Shown: positions 3,296 to 33,693 of the stretch, piece after piece | How the letters are laid out: each line of letters starts with the position of its first letter | How positions within the stretch are numbered: the first letter of the stretch is position 1 | From: Nitrosomonas sp. | GTDB taxonomy: Bacteria; Pseudomonadota; Gammaproteobacteria; Burkholderiales; Nitrosomonadaceae | Assembly: GCA_030682075.1 (NCBI GenBank) | Contig: JAUXRH010000142.1 | Coordinates: forward strand, 1-33,942 | DNA: 33,942 nt | Reading direction: 5' to 3' | The notes under the pieces: generated by a model | What the model saw: the letters and a program-made list of their open reading frames with translations, nothing else | Databases searched by the model: none | Told to the model about the DNA's origin: nothing | Position numbers and translations under genes: made by a program

Positions 3296-5278
3296 TTACC
3301 TTCCACTGGTAGATAGATTTGATAATTGTTGCTGTAAAAAATTACTGGTCTGGCTCATACTGGAAATCATTGAATCGAGCGCGGAAAATTGCGCGCGCAT
3401 GCGTCTTTCTACATCGACCAGTCGTCGATTGACTGAATCCCGCTGGGTACTAATATCCTTGATAGTCGCGTTGATGCCATCAATGCGACTGTCAATCAGA
3501 CTGTCATTTTCCAGCATGTTCGCGACCAGTTTATCCAGCTTAAAGGCGAATCCGTGAGCAAAGTCGACGCTGCCACGAAGGCCGGTTGCACCCCCTGTTA
3601 TCTCCAATACAAGGCCGCTATTACTTCCTGCGCCTAGCAGTGTTTGACCTGAGCCTGTTGCGTTGACGCCACCAATGGTGCCAGCAACATTAACTCCCGC
3701 TGTCTCAATGGGGGTGCCGAATAAATCGAGTTTGCCAGTTCCGCCGGTGATAGATACGGTTGATTCAGAGCCATACCGATCAGAGGTGATGTTAAGTACG
3801 CCGGCTGACTGCGTAACCGATACATTAATACCCGCTGCTGAAAGTGCCGATGCACCTTTAATTTTTGATTGTATTTCAGCCGCAAGTGAGTCAGCAGTGT
3901 AGGTGCCCGCAGCAAGTGTAATGCTGGCACTCACACCTTCAATCGTTAAATTAAGGGTGTCATTAACACTGGCGTTTATCGTCAGTGCCGCAGCCGCATT
4001 ACCAATAGCCGTTCCCTGGGTGGCAAGCTGGCTGATATTTAAAAAATACTCGCCATCCTGTGTTTCTGATGTGGCGCTGACAAATGAGACTAAACTGTCA
4101 TCTGGCTTGCCGATTGAGGCGAAGAGGGTAGCTACATCCTTAGTCGAATCAGCCAGAACAGTACTTAATTTGCTCGAGTCCAGTTTTAGTTTTCCATCTG
4201 ATTGAAAAGTAAGACCTATTTCTGACAGCGTAGTTAAGCCGCCTCTCGTTGCTGATAGTGGTGTATTGAATACACCACGCAGTTGAGATTGGATTGATCG
4301 TAAGGTGGAGTCACCGGTTAATATCGATGCCCGTTTACTTGCGGCATCAAATTGCGACAAATCGGTAATCGTTTTACCAAGATCGTTAAAGGCCTTAACA
4401 AAAGATTGTATCGACGCCTGGACACTGGATGCATCACGTGCAACTGACAGGGTTGTCGCGCTGCCCGTATTTGTTTTAAGTAATTTCAGCGTGACGCCTT
4501 GAATTGCATCGCTGACGATATTGGATGCTTTGCTGACCGTAATGCCGTCTATTATTAGTGTGGCGTTGCTTGCGGCGACCGTTTCCGTAAGATTAGCAGT
4601 ACCACCTGAGGATATATCATAAGCGAGTTGTGATAGCCCGGCGTTATCAATATTGTTTGCATCGTCATCGGTGACGGTAATTTTTAAGGCATTACTCAGG
4701 CCGGTATCTTTTGAAGTAATGACTAATCGATCGCCGCTGCCATCATTAACGATGCTGGCTGATACGCCAACATCAGCGGCATTAATTGCCGTGCGAACAC
4801 CGGCAAGTGATGATTCGCCGGCTGCAATGGTAATCGATTGTGATGCTTTATCCGGGTTGAGGGTAAAGGTGCCGCCGACACCGCTGTAGGTGCCAAACTG
4901 GATCGTCAGTGTGCCACTGCCGACTGTGGCGGTTGTATCCACAAAATTACTGGATTTTATTTTTTGTGCTTGCGCCAGTGTTTGTACTTCGACGGAGTAA
5001 TTTCCGGTTGCTGCTGCTGAAGATGTGGCAACGGTAGCCAAGGTGGAATCAGCCAGGTTCGCTGAAATCGCAGAAAACTTTGCTGGACCGGCGAGTGCGG
5101 CAACACTACTTTGAAATGAAGATAAAGCGCCTTTCAAGCTACCGAAAGCAGTCAGCTGTGCTTGTTGTCTGGCTTCCTTATTATCCAGCGACGCCAGTGG
5201 CCGACGTTCTATGGCCATTAATTGGCTGACGATGCCTTTGACATCCAATCCGGAGCCGATCCCTGGTGAAGAAAGCAT
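3296..5278 (-). CDS. fliD: Flagellar filament capping protein FliD
   Basis: 660 aa; N-terminal SSPGIGSGLDVKGIVSQLMAIERRPLASL and the C-terminal coiled coil are typical of FliD. Confidence 0.95.
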   Translation of the reverse strand: MLSSPGIGSGLDVKGIVSQLMAIERRPLASLDNKEARQQAQLTAFGSLKGALSSFQSSVAALAGPAKFSAISANLADSTLATVATSSAAATGNYSVEVQTLAQAQKIKSSNFVDTTATVGSGTLTIQFGTYSGVGGTFTLNPDKASQSITIAAGESSLAGVRTAINAADVGVSASIVNDGSGDRLVITSKDTGLSNALKITVTDDDANNIDNAGLSQLAYDISSGGTANLTETVAASNATLIIDGITVSKASNIVSDAIQGVTLKLLKTNTGSATTLSVARDASSVQASIQSFVKAFNDLGKTITDLSQFDAASKRASILTGDSTLRSIQSQLRGVFNTPLSATRGGLTTLSEIGLTFQSDGKLKLDSSKLSTVLADSTKDVATLFASIGKPDDSLVSFVSATSETQDGEYFLNISQLATQGTAIGNAAAALTINASVNDTLNLTIEGVSASITLAAGTYTADSLAAEIQSKIKGASALSAAGINVSVTQSAGVLNITSDRYGSESTVSITGGTGKLDLFGTPIETAGVNVAGTIGGVNATGSGQTLLGAGSNSGLVLEITGGATGLRGSVDFAHGFAFKLDKLVANMLENDSLIDSRIDGINATIKDISTQRDSVNRRLVDVERRMRAQFSALDSMISSMSQTSNFLQQQLSNLSTSGR

Positions 5279-25080: not shown

Positions 25081-26268
25081 TTATTGCAAAATTGTTGCAT
25101 GTAATTCTGAAAATATCTCGCCCACATACGCAATCTGTTCGGTTGTATGGGCAGCATTAATACTGCAACGTACCAAAGATTTATTCTCAGGCGCTGCGGG
25201 TGGTAAAATTAAATTTACATATATATTATGCTCTAGTAAGCCATTCCATATTGCAAGTGCCTGTTGAGGATTATCGAGTACTGCCGAAATAATTGGCCCC
25301 GGTTCAGGCCCAAGTTTAAAGCCAATCTCACTCATTATTGAATAGAGTTGGTGGGCGTTTCTCCATAATTGATCACGTAAGTTACTTCCATTACGTAATA
25401 GCTGTAATGCTACACGAGTAGAAGCGATTGTTGCTGGGGACGGTGACGCCGTAAAGATATATGGGTGACTAACATACCGAAGTTGATTCAATTGTGGGTG
25501 ATTACTGACACAATAACCACCAATACTGCAGAGACTTTTACTAAAGGTTCCCGTGATAAAATCAACCTCATTAAGTAATCCGGTTTTTTCAACCAGACCT
25601 TGACCTGTGCTACCTAAAACACCGAGCGAATGTGCTTCATCAAGTAGGAGGATGCTGTTGTAAGTATTCTTGATTCTAACAATATCTGCTAATGGGGCCT
25701 GATCCCCCAGCATACTGTATATCCCTTCGGCAATGATTAAGGTTGAACGTGAGCGTTCACCTAAACGACGTAGTCTTTTTTCTAAATCAGCCACATCATT
25801 ATGACGGAATCGAATGATGTCAGCACCACTCAGTGTGCATCCATCATAGATACTCGCGTGAGAATCACCATCAATCAGGACAACGTCGCCAGACCCAACC
25901 AGGCCCGATATAGTACCAAGATTTGCTTGATAACCTGTAGTGAATACGATACTTTCACGACAATTATAAAAATCAGCAAATTCCTGTTCTAGCGCACGGT
26001 GGCCAAAATAACTTCCATTGGCCATACGTGAGCCTGTTGTGCCAGTGCCTTCTTTATCAATGGCTTCATGGGCGGCCTGAAGACATTCTGGCGCAAAAGA
26101 TAATCCAAGGTAGTTATTCGTCCCGAGAAGTAGTACACGGTTATTACCAATTCTTGCTTCTGTTGCTGAATAAACTTCCTCGATGGGAATGCCAAATGCT
26201 TTCAGTCCAGTAGGTAATAGTGCTTTTCTTGCTGATGCAGCCGCATCTAGTTTATCTAACAGATTCAT
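25081..26268 (-). CDS. spt: Alpha-oxoamine synthase, predicted serine palmitoyltransferase (Caulobacter-type SPT)
   Basis: 395 aa; LLGTNNYLGLSFAPE, EGTGTTGSRMANGSYFGHRALEQEFADFY, DGDSHASIYDGC, LLLDEAHSLGVLGSTGQG, PLP lysine motif GTFSKSL. ATGA overlap with the upstream ACP gene. Confidence 0.8.
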   Translation of the reverse strand: MNLLDKLDAAASARKALLPTGLKAFGIPIEEVYSATEARIGNNRVLLLGTNNYLGLSFAPECLQAAHEAIDKEGTGTTGSRMANGSYFGHRALEQEFADFYNCRESIVFTTGYQANLGTISGLVGSGDVVLIDGDSHASIYDGCTLSGADIIRFRHNDVADLEKRLRRLGERSRSTLIIAEGIYSMLGDQAPLADIVRIKNTYNSILLLDEAHSLGVLGSTGQGLVEKTGLLNEVDFITGTFSKSLCSIGGYCVSNHPQLNQLRYVSHPYIFTASPSPATIASTRVALQLLRNGSNLRDQLWRNAHQLYSIMSEIGFKLGPEPGPIISAVLDNPQQALAIWNGLLEHNIYVNLILPPAAPENKSLVRCSINAAHTTEQIAYVGEIFSELHATILQ

Positions 26269-26522
26269 TTTGATTCAGATTCGATTTTATAGATCAAGTC
26301 CGCAAGGTCGCGAACTGTTAAAACATCCACAAGTGCATTTATGGGTATGGAAATATCAAAGGTATCTTCAATTTCCATAATAAGATTTAACAGTTTTATA
26401 GAATCAATTGCAAGTTGATTGATAAGACTCATTTCCGGAGTAACAGTTACACCAGACTCAGTAAAGTTTTCAAGACGATGGCAAAGTTGCTTTAGGATTT
26501 CGTTGTAATTATTTTCCGCCAT
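26265..26522 (-). CDS. Acyl carrier protein of the oxoamine-synthase cassette
   Basis: 85 aa from ATG at 26522; phosphopantetheine site NQLAIDSIKLLNLIMEIEDTFDISI (DSIK/L). The ORF track over-extends upstream. Confidence 0.88.
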   Translation of the reverse strand: MAENNYNEILKQLCHRLENFTESGVTVTPEMSLINQLAIDSIKLLNLIMEIEDTFDISIPINALVDVLTVRDLADLIYKIESESK

Positions 26523-26559
26523 ATATACCGATTTCGAATAGATTAAGGCTGCTATTGTC

Positions 26560-27468
26560 TCAGAAAAGCAATGGCAACGCATTACGTAGAGTAATGTGAG
26601 GCTGCCACCCGGGAAGTGCTTCAATTAGTGGTTTATTATTACACAGCCAGTTTGGATGTTGTAATTCTCTTACTTTTCCTGGGGTCAACATAGGCGCATA
26701 GTCAAAAATCATTGCTAACCACAAATTTGCATAAGCAATCAGATGAACTAATGATGTCGGGATGGTAATGCAGCGTACAGAATGCCCCCAAATTTCCTGG
26801 GTAATGGTGGCTATTGATTGGTAACTGTATCCTTCTGGATTTCCATCATCAAGCTCATAGATTCCATTAGAAGGTGTAATCGCTGAAAGCCAGCATTGTA
26901 TGGCAGCAACAAGATCGTCAATATGCAATAGACTGAAATTATTTGACGGGCTACCAACTACCGGCAATAATCCATGGCGCGTTGCACTGAAAACAGGTTT
27001 CAGCTCTTTATCGCCAGCACCATAAACCGCTGTTGGTCTAAAAATAGTCCATTGTCCGTCTGGATAGTAAACTACAGACTGCTCAGCCATCAGTTTACTT
27101 TCTGCGTACCAGGAAAGCTGAGGTTCTCTTGCGGCCAATGAAGAGATAAGGAGAAAACGAGGTTTTACTTTTTGCAGAGTTGCCGCTTGTACCAGATTTG
27201 ACGTTCCAGTTACGTTGGTGTTAATAAAAGCTTTAAGAGAGTTTCCTCGCACCGAGCCAGCACAATGAATAACAGAATCAGCACCGTGAACCAGTTCAAG
27301 TAATGCTGATTGGTTATTCAAGTCCCCATTTATCCATTGTATAGATTCTTGATCATTACGCGGGCTTCTTGTTAAAGCTCGGACTTTATAGCCATTCTTA
27401 ATGAGATTATCTAAAATCGCTCTACCAATAAAACCAGTAGCGCCTGTTAACGCGATGATTCCAGGCAT
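26560..27468 (-). CDS. NAD(P)-dependent epimerase/dehydratase (extended SDR); CerR-like ceramide reductase candidate
   Basis: 302 aa; GATGFIGRAILDNLIKNGYKVRALTRSP, HCAGSVRG, SWYAESKLMAEQSVV (YxxxK). Confidence 0.85.
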   Translation of the reverse strand: MPGIIALTGATGFIGRAILDNLIKNGYKVRALTRSPRNDQESIQWINGDLNNQSALLELVHGADSVIHCAGSVRGNSLKAFINTNVTGTSNLVQAATLQKVKPRFLLISSLAAREPQLSWYAESKLMAEQSVVYYPDGQWTIFRPTAVYGAGDKELKPVFSATRHGLLPVVGSPSNNFSLLHIDDLVAAIQCWLSAITPSNGIYELDDGNPEGYSYQSIATITQEIWGHSVRCITIPTSLVHLIAYANLWLAMIFDYAPMLTPGKVRELQHPNWLCNNKPLIEALPGWQPHITLRNALPLLF

Positions 27469-27474
27469 TACTGG

Positions 27475-29298
27475 TTATCTGTCTCCTGATTCTACAGCGG
27501 ATAATTGATCAGATAAATTTGTACGTTGAATAAATCCTTGACGTGCAGCAAATCGTGATAATTTTCCGGAAGACGTCCGCGGTAATGTGTGTGGTGATAC
27601 CAACTCAACCAGACAATTGACACCAAATGCCATATATATAAGCTGTTGTAGTCTGTTGATGAGCGACTGACGCTCTGTAGCTGAAGTTAATCTGCACTCT
27701 ATAACCAATACTACTGTTGTTGCCCCATCAGCAGCATTTATGCCAAAGGCAGAAGCCTCACGAGATCGTATCTCTGCTTGTTGCTCTGCTAACTCTTCAA
27801 CATCTTGTGCGCGAATATTGCGGCCATTTACAATAATGACATCAGTACGTCTTCCTGTAATATACAAGTCTCCTTCAAAGAGAAAGCCAATATCGCCGGT
27901 GTCTAACCAGTTTCCAGGTTTTAGTGCTTTCTTGGTTTCCTCTGGATTTTGGAAATAACCTGCCATAACACTGTCGCCATGTACTAATACACTGCCTACC
28001 ATAAAATTTGGCAGTTCTTCACCAGCCTCATTGAAAATTTTAACGGTATGTCCAGGTAACGGTCGACCGCAATTTACAAACTCATTATACTTTCTTCCAT
28101 CAGCTTGTACCCGTACAGCCATTTTTTTATCGACTAATGTTTTTGCATCAATCTTTATACTTTGTGAGCCATGATTAATTCGAGAGAAAGTGACAGCAAG
28201 GGTTGATTCAGCAAGGCCATAACAAGGTAAAAATGCACGCTCATCAAAACCGGCAGAAGAAAACTTCTTCGCAAAACTTCTTAGAGTGCCGGGATTAATC
28301 ATCTCTGCACCGATCCCTGCAGCACGCCAACAACTAAGATCGAGATCCTTTAGATCTGAGTCGCGCACACGCAACGTGCAGAGATTAAGGCCGAAAGGCT
28401 GACTAAATGCAATTGTGCAGCGATTGCGACTAATCAATCGTAACCATTGCAAGGGTCTGATTGCAAAATCACGAGTTGCAAGATAGTCAACGGTGACCTG
28501 CGAAACCATTGGCGCCAAGACTAATCCAACTAAGCCCATATCATGATAAAAAGGCAGCCAGGAAGCTGCGCGATCTCCAGGCTTCATCTCTAAACCGTTC
28601 CGGACAATTCCCTGCATGTTGCTCATTAGTGCGCGTTCTGTAATAACTACCCCACGTGATGCGCGCGTGCTTCCAGATGTAAATTGTAAATAAGCTGTTT
28701 CATCTGGATGATTCGGCTGGAATTCAACTTCCAAAGCAGGAAGCTGTGCAAGTTGGTCCGGCGTGCCGACCCATTTTAGCCCCTTAATATTTTTTGCAGC
28801 TTCTTTAAGGAAGTTCACATAATCAAAATTAGCCAATGCGATATCAGCTTGACCGCTATTTAGCATTCCTTGTAACTGCTGAACATATACAGTATGGCTG
28901 CCAAGATTAACGGGAACAGGCATTGCATAAGGAACTAGTCCCACATAGCGGCATGCAAAGAATAATTCAACAAACTCGGGTGATGTATCCGCAATGATAG
29001 CTACACGGGCGCCACGATTCAAGCCAAAGCCATATAAGCGCTGTGCTGATATACGTGCCTTTTTTCTTAATTCACTATACGGGAGAACTGAGCGCAAATT
29101 TCCTTTTGCGTCATAGAAGTTATATCCCGTTGTTCCACTCGCAGCGTACTCCAAAGCATCGGTCAATGTATTGAAATCTGCTAAGCGTTGTGCTTGCACA
29201 TTGATTGTCGGTGTTGCCGTTATTTGTATTTCGCTTGAAGGTTGAGAATCAAACGCTGGCGTTAGCGGAGCATTCAACTTGGTTATTGTCAAACTCAA
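27475..29298 (-). CDS. Fatty acyl-AMP ligase (AMP-dependent synthetase)
   Basis: 607 aa; AYLQFTSGSTRASRGVVITERALMSN, LPFYHDMGLVGLVL, CYGLAESTLAVTFS, WLDTGDIGFLFEGDLYITGRRTDVIIVNGRN, LPRTSSGKLSR. TTG start preceded by AGGGGAAG. Confidence 0.9.
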   Translation of the reverse strand: MSLTITKLNAPLTPAFDSQPSSEIQITATPTINVQAQRLADFNTLTDALEYAASGTTGYNFYDAKGNLRSVLPYSELRKKARISAQRLYGFGLNRGARVAIIADTSPEFVELFFACRYVGLVPYAMPVPVNLGSHTVYVQQLQGMLNSGQADIALANFDYVNFLKEAAKNIKGLKWVGTPDQLAQLPALEVEFQPNHPDETAYLQFTSGSTRASRGVVITERALMSNMQGIVRNGLEMKPGDRAASWLPFYHDMGLVGLVLAPMVSQVTVDYLATRDFAIRPLQWLRLISRNRCTIAFSQPFGLNLCTLRVRDSDLKDLDLSCWRAAGIGAEMINPGTLRSFAKKFSSAGFDERAFLPCYGLAESTLAVTFSRINHGSQSIKIDAKTLVDKKMAVRVQADGRKYNEFVNCGRPLPGHTVKIFNEAGEELPNFMVGSVLVHGDSVMAGYFQNPEETKKALKPGNWLDTGDIGFLFEGDLYITGRRTDVIIVNGRNIRAQDVEELAEQQAEIRSREASAFGINAADGATTVVLVIECRLTSATERQSLINRLQQLIYMAFGVNCLVELVSPHTLPRTSSGKLSRFAARQGFIQRTNLSDQLSAVESGDR

Positions 29299-29657: not shown

Positions 29658-30788
29658 ATGGATTTAAGAGCCATTGTATTGAGATTAAAAAATTTGGTTA
29701 CAGCAGTGTATTTCCGAGATTTGTTTTTGCGAGGCACGCCATTTTTAGATGTGCGAGCAGAGGACGAGTTTGCTAAAGGTAATTTTCCTCGATCGACTAA
29801 CCATCCGATCCTGAATAATCATGAACGGCATTTGGTCGGCACTTGCTATAAGCAGAAGGGACAGCAGGCAGCAGTTGCGTTAGGCCATCAATTGGTTTGT
29901 GGAGAATTGAAAACGGCTCGTGTACAAAGTTGGTGTGAACTCCTGGCTGCGAATCCTGATACGCATGTGTATTGTTGGCGTGGGGGGATGCGTTCAAATC
30001 TGGCGCGTCAATGGATGCATGAAGCGGGAATGGATATTCCGTTGGTAGAAGGTGGTTATAAAGCGCTTAGGCAGTCATTAATCCAGGTAATTGATGAAGT
30101 AGCGGCTAATGTTCGAATGATCAGAGTGGGTGGAAAGACAGGGGTTGCCAAGTCCCGATTAATTAACCAAGTTTTGCATAGCGTTGATTTAGAAAAACAT
30201 GCGAATCATCGTGGGTCGAGCTTTGGGAAGATGATAAGCCAGCAACCGACGCAGTCTAATTTTGAACATGCGTTAGCTATCGATCTACTACATACAATGG
30301 GTCAAACATCCCAATGGAAAACATTATTTGTTGAGGATGAAAGCAGGAATATTGGCGCAGTTAGTATTCCATTGCTATTTTTCGATGCAATGCGACAGTC
30401 ACAATTAGTACTTATTGAGATGCCATACGAATTTCGTGTGCAACAAATATTACAAGAATATGTAGTTGAAATGCTGAGAAGTTTTGAGGAAAATTATGCT
30501 GAAAGTGGATTTGAACTTTTTAGTAATTATCTGAAAGAGAGTTTGCGGGGAATTCAGAAACGATTGGGCTTGGAGCGCTATAAATCGATTGCCGGATTAT
30601 TAACAGACGCTTTGAAAACTCATTTGAATACGGGCCGCATTCAAGGGCATGAAGCATGGATAATGCGTTTGTTAACTGATTACTATGATCCCATGTATGA
30701 ATACCAGATAAGTAAAAAAAAGGATCTGATCATTTTTAGGGGAAATAATTCAGAAGCCCTGGATTGGGCATTACAATTGGACAGTTGA
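29658..30788 (+). CDS. mnmH: tRNA 2-selenouridine synthase MnmH (SelU)
   Basis: 376 aa; rhodanese-type FLDVRAEDEFAKGNFPRSTNHPILNNHERHLVGTCYKQKGQQAAVALGHQLV and catalytic VYCWRGGMRS. Confidence 0.94.
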   Translation: MDLRAIVLRLKNLVTAVYFRDLFLRGTPFLDVRAEDEFAKGNFPRSTNHPILNNHERHLVGTCYKQKGQQAAVALGHQLVCGELKTARVQSWCELLAANPDTHVYCWRGGMRSNLARQWMHEAGMDIPLVEGGYKALRQSLIQVIDEVAANVRMIRVGGKTGVAKSRLINQVLHSVDLEKHANHRGSSFGKMISQQPTQSNFEHALAIDLLHTMGQTSQWKTLFVEDESRNIGAVSIPLLFFDAMRQSQLVLIEMPYEFRVQQILQEYVVEMLRSFEENYAESGFELFSNYLKESLRGIQKRLGLERYKSIAGLLTDALKTHLNTGRIQGHEAWIMRLLTDYYDPMYEYQISKKKDLIIFRGNNSEALDWALQLDS

Positions 30789-31035: not shown

Positions 31036-32370
31036 TCACAATACGACTTTGGCCTCTAAATCATGCGCATCAGAATCCGTAATTTCAACCTCAGCAAACT
31101 CACCGGGCTTCAGATGACCGGCATTCGCAATAGAGACCATGCCGTCGATTTCCGGCGCATCCGCCGTACTTCGCGCAATCACCTGATCTTCTTCGACCTC
31201 ATCGATGAGCACGGTCATTTTATGCCCCACTTTACCGGCAAGACGCGCCCGGCTAATTTCTTCCTGCACCTTCATGAAACGCGCCAGGCGTTCTTCTTTG
31301 ATTTCTTCAGCAAGCGGATCGGCAAATGTATTGGCGACCGCACCTGCTACGGGTGAATAAGTAAAGCAGCCAACACGATCCAGTTGCGCTTCCTGTAAAA
31401 ACTGGAGCAATTCCTCAAACTCCGCTTCCGTTTCACCCGGAAAGCCCACAATGAACGTACTGCGCAACGTGATATCAGGACATATCTGTCGCCATTGCTG
31501 GATCCGTGCCAGGTTATTTTCCGCACTCGCCGGGCGTTTCATGGCTTTCAAGATACGTCGATTGGCATGTTGCAAGGGCACATCGAGATAAGGCAGGATT
31601 TTTCCTTCAGCCATCAAGGGAATCAACTCATCGACATGCGGATAGGGATAGACATAATGCATCCGTACCCATATCCCCAGCGCACCTAATGCTTGCGCCA
31701 GTTCGGTGAGCCGTGTTTTTATGGGTCGGCCTTGCCAGAAACCGGTGCGGTATTTGACATCAACACCATAGGCACTGGTATCTTGTGAAATGATCAGTAA
31801 TTCTTTGACACCAGCATTCACCAGGTTTTCTGCTTCATCCATCACCTGATGGATTGGGCGACTCACCAGATCACCGCGCATAGAAGGAATAATACAGAAT
31901 GTACAACGATGATTGCACCCTTCCGAGATTTTTATATAGGCATAATGCTTTGGCGTCAGCCGAATGCCCTGCGGCGGAACCAGGCTGGTAAATGGATCAT
32001 GCGGTTGCGGCAAGTGCCGATGCACGGCCGCCATCACTTCCTGCAATGCATGTGGACCGGTCACTTCCAATACCTGCGGATGTGCCCTCTTAACTACCTC
32101 CCCGTCTTCTTTGGCACCCAGGCAACCGGTCACAATCACCTTGCCATTTTCAGCCAGTGCCTCGCCGATCGTATCCAGCGATTCCTCCACCGCACGATCG
32201 ATAAACCCACAGGTATTGACTACCACCAGATCCGCATCTTCGTAAGAGGGCGAAATACCATAGCCTTCGGCACGTAATTGCGTCAGAATTTGTTCGGAGT
32301 CCACCAGCGCCTTAGGGCAACCCAGTGAGATAAAACCGATTTTTGGAGTAAATTGCTTGAGTGATGACAT
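31036..32370 (-). CDS. rimO: Ribosomal protein S12 methylthiotransferase RimO
   Basis: 444 aa; [27 protein letters not shown], radical [25 protein letters not shown]-terminal TRAM domain. Confidence 0.96.
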
Positions 32371-32444: not shown

Positions 32445-32521
32445 TCATTTTACTTCATCCACCATTAAAGAATCGCCGATTAATTTTGCCCTCATGCAAT
32501 TGCCTGAAAAAAGGAGGAATA

Positions 32522-33082
32522 ATGATTATTATCAAAACTGGAAGCGTGATACTTACTGGACTATTGGCGCTTTGCCTATGGCCACTTTCAGCCTTGGCAC
32601 AAGTCAACTGTGCCACACTGCCCCATTGGGTTAAGCTGAATAATGGACTGCAAATGAATCAGATCCATGTCTTTTGTGGCGAATGGCAACATGATCGAGC
32701 AAAAGGTTTTCATTCCCGGCCTGACGGGATCAACCCTGCCACTGTCGCAAAATTTACCGTCCAGGATCGACCAAACGCTGCGGGTATCTATACCGGCAAA
32801 TGGTCTTATCAAAATCAGCCGGATAAAAATAAATTTTCATCCCTGTTTCCAGACAACTGCTCAACCGAGCAAGTGCTTAATTCTATCTCCCATGCTTCAA
32901 CCACCACAGATGCCCAATGTCCTCAAGGTGCACCAAGCTGGACAAAATGTGGTCAAAACAAACCCAAGTCCGCTCAGAAAAATTCGATAAAATACTGTAG
33001 TAAAGATGGCCAGTTTTTTACCATCGGCTTTGCGCCACCTCAGAACGGAAAAATTAATACCGCATTCCCAATCTTCCAATGA
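32522..33082 (+). CDS. Exported EndoU-family nuclease-like protein
   Basis: Start ATG 32522 after AAGGAGG; signal peptide MIIIKTGSVILTGLLALCLWPLSALAQ; EndoU-like QIHVFCGEWQHDRAKGFHSRPDG. Six Cys in the predicted mature protein. Confidence 0.75.
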   Translation: MIIIKTGSVILTGLLALCLWPLSALAQVNCATLPHWVKLNNGLQMNQIHVFCGEWQHDRAKGFHSRPDGINPATVAKFTVQDRPNAAGIYTGKWSYQNQPDKNKFSSLFPDNCSTEQVLNSISHASTTTDAQCPQGAPSWTKCGQNKPKSAQKNSIKYCSKDGQFFTIGFAPPQNGKINTAFPIFQ

Positions 33083-33393
33083 ATCAAAGCAGTTTCACAT
33101 GGCCGGGGCGAATTCAAAATGACCCGGCTCATGATCTGATCGTGGCCTATCTTACCATTGACCTGCAGAAAAGCTCGAAATGGACAGAGGAACTTCTACA
33201 GAAAATTCGAGAGGTTAAATCGGGCCTGGTTTCTTCATGGGAACGAACAGGTAACGCCTACTGCCTGCATTTGTATCCCGGGCACATTGAGATTGAGGAA
33301 GATTATGCGGAAGAGACTGGGGGACTCATAAAGGTTTCACTGGATGATTTTGAAGCAGCGGTAATTGCGTGGCAAGCGTTTATAAAAAAATAA
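33079..33393 (+). CDS. Small acidic protein, candidate cognate immunity protein of the EndoU-like protein
   Basis: 104 aa; start overlaps the EndoU stop (ATGA at 33079-33082); SSWERTGNAYCLHLYPGHIEIEEDY...; no signal peptide. Confidence 0.65.
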   Translation: MNQSSFTWPGRIQNDPAHDLIVAYLTIDLQKSSKWTEELLQKIREVKSGLVSSWERTGNAYCLHLYPGHIEIEEDYAEETGGLIKVSLDDFEAAVIAWQAFIKK

Positions 33394-33474: not shown

Positions 33475-33693
33475 TTATATTTTAAACCTGGCTGCATCAA
33501 TAATCGACCAAATATGAAAGATAGCACCGATCACCACGGGAATAATCAATACCGCAAAAAAGTAGTTAACCCCAACAATGATAAAAAATAGCAGTGCCGG
33601 CAAGATACGCCCCTGAACCAGTTGACCCAGTCCGGGAATAAAAAAACTACAGATTGCTGCGAGTACGTTTCCGCCAGAGCCTTGTCCTGTCAT
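33475..33693 (-). CDS. Small integral membrane protein (TM2-like)
   Basis: 72 aa; GGNVLAAICSFFIPGLGQLVQGRILPALLFFIIVGVNYFFAVLIIPVVIGAIFHIWSIIDAARF. Confidence 0.65.
   Translation of the reverse strand: MTGQGSGGNVLAAICSFFIPGLGQLVQGRILPALLFFIIVGVNYFFAVLIIPVVIGAIFHIWSIIDAARFKI

Follow-up and report, generated by a model that had tools for sequence, protein, structure and literature searches.

A minimal exported EndoU ribonuclease coupled to a UPF0231/YacL-family protein: a candidate toxin/immunity pair in Nitrosomonas

Why should a bacterium make a small ribonuclease (RNase) with an export leader and, from the very next gene, a small acidic protein with none? The question is raised by two overlapping genes in a 33,942-nucleotide (nt) stretch of DNA from Nitrosomonas sp., an ammonia-oxidising bacterium (contig JAUXRH010000142.1, positions 1 to 33,942; this whole stretch is the window in what follows). 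The upstream gene encodes an exported EndoU protein of 186 amino acids (aa), and the downstream gene a 104-aa relative of E. coli YacL (family UPF0231). We think it probable that the two form a toxin/immunity-type pair, in which a minimal Sec-exported EndoU is matched by a UPF0231/YacL-family immunity protein. What the pair is for, be it antagonism, nutrition or defence against grazers, is less certain than this reading of the pair itself.

The exported EndoU protein and the gene coupled to it

The EndoU gene, our candidate toxin, occupies 32522..33082 on the plus strand (ATG at 32522, stop TGA at 33080-33082). Read from the sequence, a perfect Shine-Dalgarno match, AGGAGG, stands 4 nt 5' of the ATG (32512..32517, +). 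Residues 1-26 form a predicted signal peptide, MIIIKTGSVILTGLLALCLWPLSALA (32522..32599, +; cleavage site placed by eye), and the EndoU domain spans 32660..33073 (+). The candidate immunity gene (33079..33393, +) begins inside the end of the EndoU gene, with the stop of one and the start of the other overlapping in ATGA at 33079-33082. In the window sequence 5' of this small gene we see no Shine-Dalgarno comparable to AGGAGG, which is consistent with its translation being coupled to that of the EndoU gene. A scan for promoters and terminators gave results near shuffled expectation and was not used.

Domain, fold, leader and catalytic-type residues can each be established by sequence analysis. 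The profile PF14436 (EndoU_bacteria) matches the protein with 61.5 bits over profile positions 5-128 of 129, against a curated cut-off of 25.3 bits. An AlphaFold model (predicted local distance difference test, pLDDT, 90) returns coronavirus Nsp15, human EndoU and XendoU as its top solved structures in Foldseek, with weak E-values (best 0.015, probability 0.99). The protein has the two histidines and the C-terminal threonine by which bacterial EndoU nucleases are recognised (H49 at 32666-32668, H64 at 32711-32713, T180 at 33059-33061), and these three, together with S106, S107 and N179, are unchanged across 26 aligned sequences. By sequence, every intact EndoU homologue carries a signal-type leader, and six cysteines follow it in 37/37 intact homologues of the family. 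An earlier note on this DNA had claimed an EndoU-like core, a signal peptide, six cysteines after the leader and the ATGA overlap, and had named the lack of an EndoU fold or of a catalytic His/His/Lys as grounds for abandoning its idea. Fold and histidine pair are both found, the leader and cysteines are kept in the homologues, and the overlap is exact to the nucleotide. Single-sequence searches of the PDB find no relatives of either protein, a plasmid search with the EndoU protein gives no matches, and PADLOC has no model for either protein.

How far does the enzyme travel? The same note called it secreted, and what the sequence shows of this goes as far as a Sec-type leader. In the genome itself, a draft that is 99.8% complete, nothing reaches the cut-off for a canonical type II secretin (best TIGR02517 match 184 bits, cut-off 351), so a type II route for EndoU is not supported; the same profile scores above its cut-off in 10 of the 126 genomes of the family. 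Nor is the protein built like a polymorphic toxin, that is, a large trafficking protein with a C-terminal toxin, being instead an exported single domain; that architecture is seen only in its relatives in an enterobacterial genome (G420; G numbers denote genomes and L numbers loci) and in Streptomyces.

The partner family and the conservation of the pair

The small protein is acidic and leaderless, and it scores 28.1 bits with PF06062 (UPF0231, YacL; cut-off 25). Its resemblance to YacL, proposed in the earlier note, proves to be real: profile-profile comparison of the immunity-type proteins with YacL gives 96-98% probability and E-values of 1e-9 to 1e-13, and PF06062 matches 26 of the 29 members of our alignment, in which E. 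coli YacL is included. Several relatives fall under the PF06062 cut-off. Since that profile by itself misses the window gene in a whole-genome scan, we used our own profile, A3, instead. A3 includes several loci of the class survey described below, and its hits at those loci carry no independent weight; L146, L150, L153 and the genes of G767 and G859 lie outside it. The predicted fold runs two helices, four strands, helix. Two sets of matches were discarded, namely repeat-built tetratricopeptide-repeat designs, the main hits of the small-protein profile, which are spurious since a short helix motif recurs many times per chain, and viral polymerases returned by Foldseek of the model (template modelling score < 0.5, E > 0.04).

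Within the family, EndoU is present in 38/126 genomes, always as one copy, and the small protein in 39/126. For all 37 intact EndoU genes the small gene lies directly downstream on the same strand, with a spacing between -8 and +7 nt and the -4 overlap commonest. Three genomes depart from this: in G098 the EndoU is fragmentary, in G059 the small gene is, and in G082 the small gene lies at a contig edge but has the last EndoU codons in front of it. Coupling, co-occurrence and partner homology are matters of plain sequence comparison, and the label 'orphan' given to the pair earlier was wrong, as this is a widespread conserved module. As the genomes compared are related, Fisher values overstate significance.

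The pair adjoins rimO, the gene for ribosomal protein S12 methylthiotransferase, in 28 loci, and in the window rimO is the divergent neighbour (31036..32370, -); RimO or a paralogue is found in 86/86 genomes of the genus. In many relatives that lack the pair, rimO directly adjoins the small membrane-protein gene that flanks the window pair on its other side (33475..33693, -). The pair therefore behaves as a cassette that is cleanly present or absent, with rimO marking its site and the membrane-protein gene its other boundary. Both proteins have diverged well above RimO, and their divergences stay correlated once that of RimO is accounted for (partial r 0.73, Mantel p 0.0002); net charges are opposite in 35 of the 37 EndoU/small-protein pairs.

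Beyond the family we surveyed 369 Gammaproteobacteria, in which the EndoU profile matches 17 genomes and the small-protein profile 12. Eleven of these twelve also carry EndoU and the twelfth (G132) holds a genuine YacL. The adjacent, co-oriented genes expected of toxin and immunity are thus seen in 37/37 cases in the family, and co-occurrence in 11/12 genomes of the class survey. The co-occurrence that the earlier note had proposed to survey is nearly perfect in this family and in others. In all eleven the EndoU gene is short and stands alone, and its product has either a leader, a lipobox (G659, G814, G716) or a hydrophobic segment at the N-terminus. G767 and G859, which belong to one genus, keep a small gene that is unlinked from EndoU and sits beside a two-component system (L187 5029-5448 and L188 about 4817-5161), which means that the association is not one of adjacency alone. 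In a survey of the phylum, the six-cysteine pair turns up in another class too, where three genomes have it and one of the three carries the small protein a second time close by. Six EndoU loci of the class have no UPF0231 partner nearby: four (L140, L141, L148, L149) encode a longer exported EndoU, the other two (L154, L155) EndoU-like tips; UPF0231 is thus tied to the short exported type and to some polymorphic toxins, not to every EndoU. The longer exported type measures about 270-370 aa and bears the motif HIFCG..GGMHYVGRY. At L145 and L146 a 167-aa gene, GreA/GreB-like by eye, lies downstream of the pair and is of interest because YacL binds RNA polymerase.

Our best case for an immunity role of the small protein comes from polymorphic-toxin contexts. 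G420 has its own yacL and, besides it, two UPF0231-like genes, of which one stands immediately downstream of an Rhs-EndoU and the other immediately downstream of an Rhs-tip EndoU. On a Streptomyces plasmid, a PT-TG pre-toxin EndoU is followed by a UPF0231-like gene. UPF0231-like genes also occur in such places without EndoU: in G422 (L209) a weak homologue (24.7 bits) is surrounded by T6SS-type immunity genes, of the Tdi1, PoNi and possibly YezG types, and in Proteus mirabilis (L138) further such genes adjoin Rhs tips. The genes at L209 and L138 are probably orphan immunity genes, and the G422 locus is probably a polyimmunity locus. A further UPF0231-like gene, in G164, lies near an apparent haemagglutinin/CdiA fragment. 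Searches with the Rhs cassette against E. coli DNA and against phage proteins gave no matches. Together with the EndoU fold, the histidine pair and the co-occurrence, the Rhs-EndoU, PT-TG-EndoU and polyimmunity contexts lend support to the toxin/immunity reading that had been proposed for this locus.

Proposed mechanism, known systems and rival explanations

How might such a pair work? The minimal EndoU, led by its Sec-type leader, would fold with disulfides in the periplasm, while the small acidic protein, made in the cytoplasm by translational coupling, would bind the basic RNase and block it by masking its active site. The maker would be protected both from toxin not yet exported and from toxin arriving from kin. 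Since the partner is leaderless, the RNA that needs protection is presumably cytoplasmic. Release may occur by lysis, in vesicles or on contact, and the likeliest purpose would be the inhibition of neighbouring bacteria through RNA cleavage, the target probably being tRNA, as with several other bacterial EndoU toxins. The opposed charges and the correlated divergence support this mechanism indirectly.

In its way of working, the pair would be most similar to barnase/barstar of Bacillus amyloliquefaciens, with which it would share a layout where an acidic inhibitor in the cytoplasm counters a small exported RNase of the wider BECR fold. The window pair differs in that its enzyme is of the EndoU family with six conserved cysteines, its genes are coupled in one operon, and its UPF0231 partner is unrelated to barstar in every search that we ran. 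With the EndoU toxins of the contact-dependent inhibition (CDI), Maf and Rhs systems, such as CdiA-CT STECO31/CdiI and MafB/MafI, it shares the EndoU domain, the His/His catalytic pair and, as a candidate, an immunity gene directly downstream, but it has no large delivery protein and lacks the architecture of a polymorphic toxin. Experiments have established EndoU toxins whose immunity genes lie downstream, MafB/MafI among them (PMC4287609). The UPF0231 partner stands outside the EndoU immunity families catalogued in 2012, which are Imm-SUKH, Imm-SuFu and Imm28 (PMC3482391), and its predicted fold differs in the order of elements from that of CdiI STECO31 (PMC9086364). SitA/SitI of Myxococcus offers another likeness: SitA is a stand-alone exported toxin with its immunity gene directly downstream, and its toxin domains act in the cytoplasm (PMC5562445). 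As a lipoprotein, SitA is delivered through outer membrane exchange and has SitB upstream of it (PMC5562445), whereas the window EndoU has neither a lipobox nor a SitB-type partner, although some of its relatives do carry a lipobox. SitA/SitI makes clear that a stand-alone exported toxin can act from one cell on another even when no dedicated injection machine serves it (PMC5562445).

Several observations weigh against a toxin/immunity pair. A look for a delivery route for the predicted toxin yields no canonical type II secretin; in many species the pair keeps its place beside rimO by vertical descent and is not visibly mobile; a reducing cytoplasm could inactivate a six-cysteine enzyme and so lessen the need for an inhibitor there; and the partner's relative in E. 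coli, YacL, has no adjacent EndoU and binds RNA polymerase. The stable position, the single copy per genome, the conserved cysteines and a leader with no secretion system of its own would suit a housekeeping or nutritional periplasmic RNase with a role like that of E. coli RNase I, degrading environmental or envelope RNA for nucleotides, with the small protein only guarding the cytoplasm and no antagonism involved. We regard this as unlikely, given the patchy presence of the pair, the clean presence or absence of the cassette between rimO and its neighbour, a divergence well above that of RimO, and the occurrence of the same partner family with Rhs and pre-toxin EndoU proteins.

The YacL homology itself suggests another view, that the small protein is an RNA polymerase/NusG-associated factor merely co-transcribed with an exported RNase and not its inhibitor. 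The homology is clear, and YacL crosslinks to RNA polymerase beta, beta' and NusG (PMC8196013). Divergent members of the family, however, track EndoU across unrelated architectures and taxa, the two genomes with an unlinked small gene keep it while carrying EndoU elsewhere, and a control search finds no EndoU in E. coli, which makes YacL the exception; we hold this account to be very improbable. The enzyme could also be aimed at protists or small animals that eat the cells, with the small protein shielding the producer. The precedent is Ribocin of P. aeruginosa, a periplasmic RNase with a signal peptide that enters the worm cytoplasm without a known secretion system, which shows that grazers, too, are within reach of a periplasmic RNase (PMC13189344). 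Ribocin, though, has an RNase A-like fold and not that of PF14436, and it leaves the corresponding helix of bacterial ribosomes uncut (PMC13189344), and the pair's relatives among polymorphic toxins suggest that the targets are bacteria; we give this explanation the least credence of the three.

Neighbouring genes and what the pair means for the family

Two further groups of genes in the window can be assigned. A single run on the minus strand (25081-29298) comprises a serine palmitoyltransferase (NF047599, 576.7 bits, cut-off 500), an acyl carrier protein, an NAD-dependent epimerase/reductase and a fatty acyl-AMP ligase, and resembles what we take to be a bacterial sphingolipid biosynthesis operon. 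On the plus strand, 29658-30788 encodes the tRNA 2-selenouridine synthase MnmH/SelU (NF008751, 465.3 bits, cut-off 361).

The proposed role of UPF0231 as an EndoU immunity family appears to have gone unrecognised so far. The text of the polymorphic-toxin catalogue mentions neither UPF0231 nor YacL (PMC3482391), and in the literature searched, which left most subscription papers outside and so allows for earlier notice elsewhere, we found no paper that pairs EndoU with UPF0231 and no toxin-immunity study of YacL/PF06062. The small protein of the window is, like E. coli YacL, small and acidic, while YacL differs in being a conserved single gene beside acnB. YacL is a protein of unknown function that binds both RNA polymerase and NusG, close to where the DNA exits (PMC8196013). 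We suggest, tentatively and as a doubtful extension, that UPF0231/YacL may at root be a family of EndoU inhibitors, with E. coli YacL either a domesticated immunity protein now at RNA polymerase or one still generally protective against incoming EndoU toxins.

If the pair is what we propose, one of the commonest RNase toxin folds would gain an immunity family outside the 2012 catalogue, and minimal exported EndoU proteins with a coupled inhibitor, predicted toxins all, would be found in many Proteobacteria. For YacL, a conserved RNA-polymerase-associated protein of E. coli, it would mean that its relatives now have a predicted function that can be tested.
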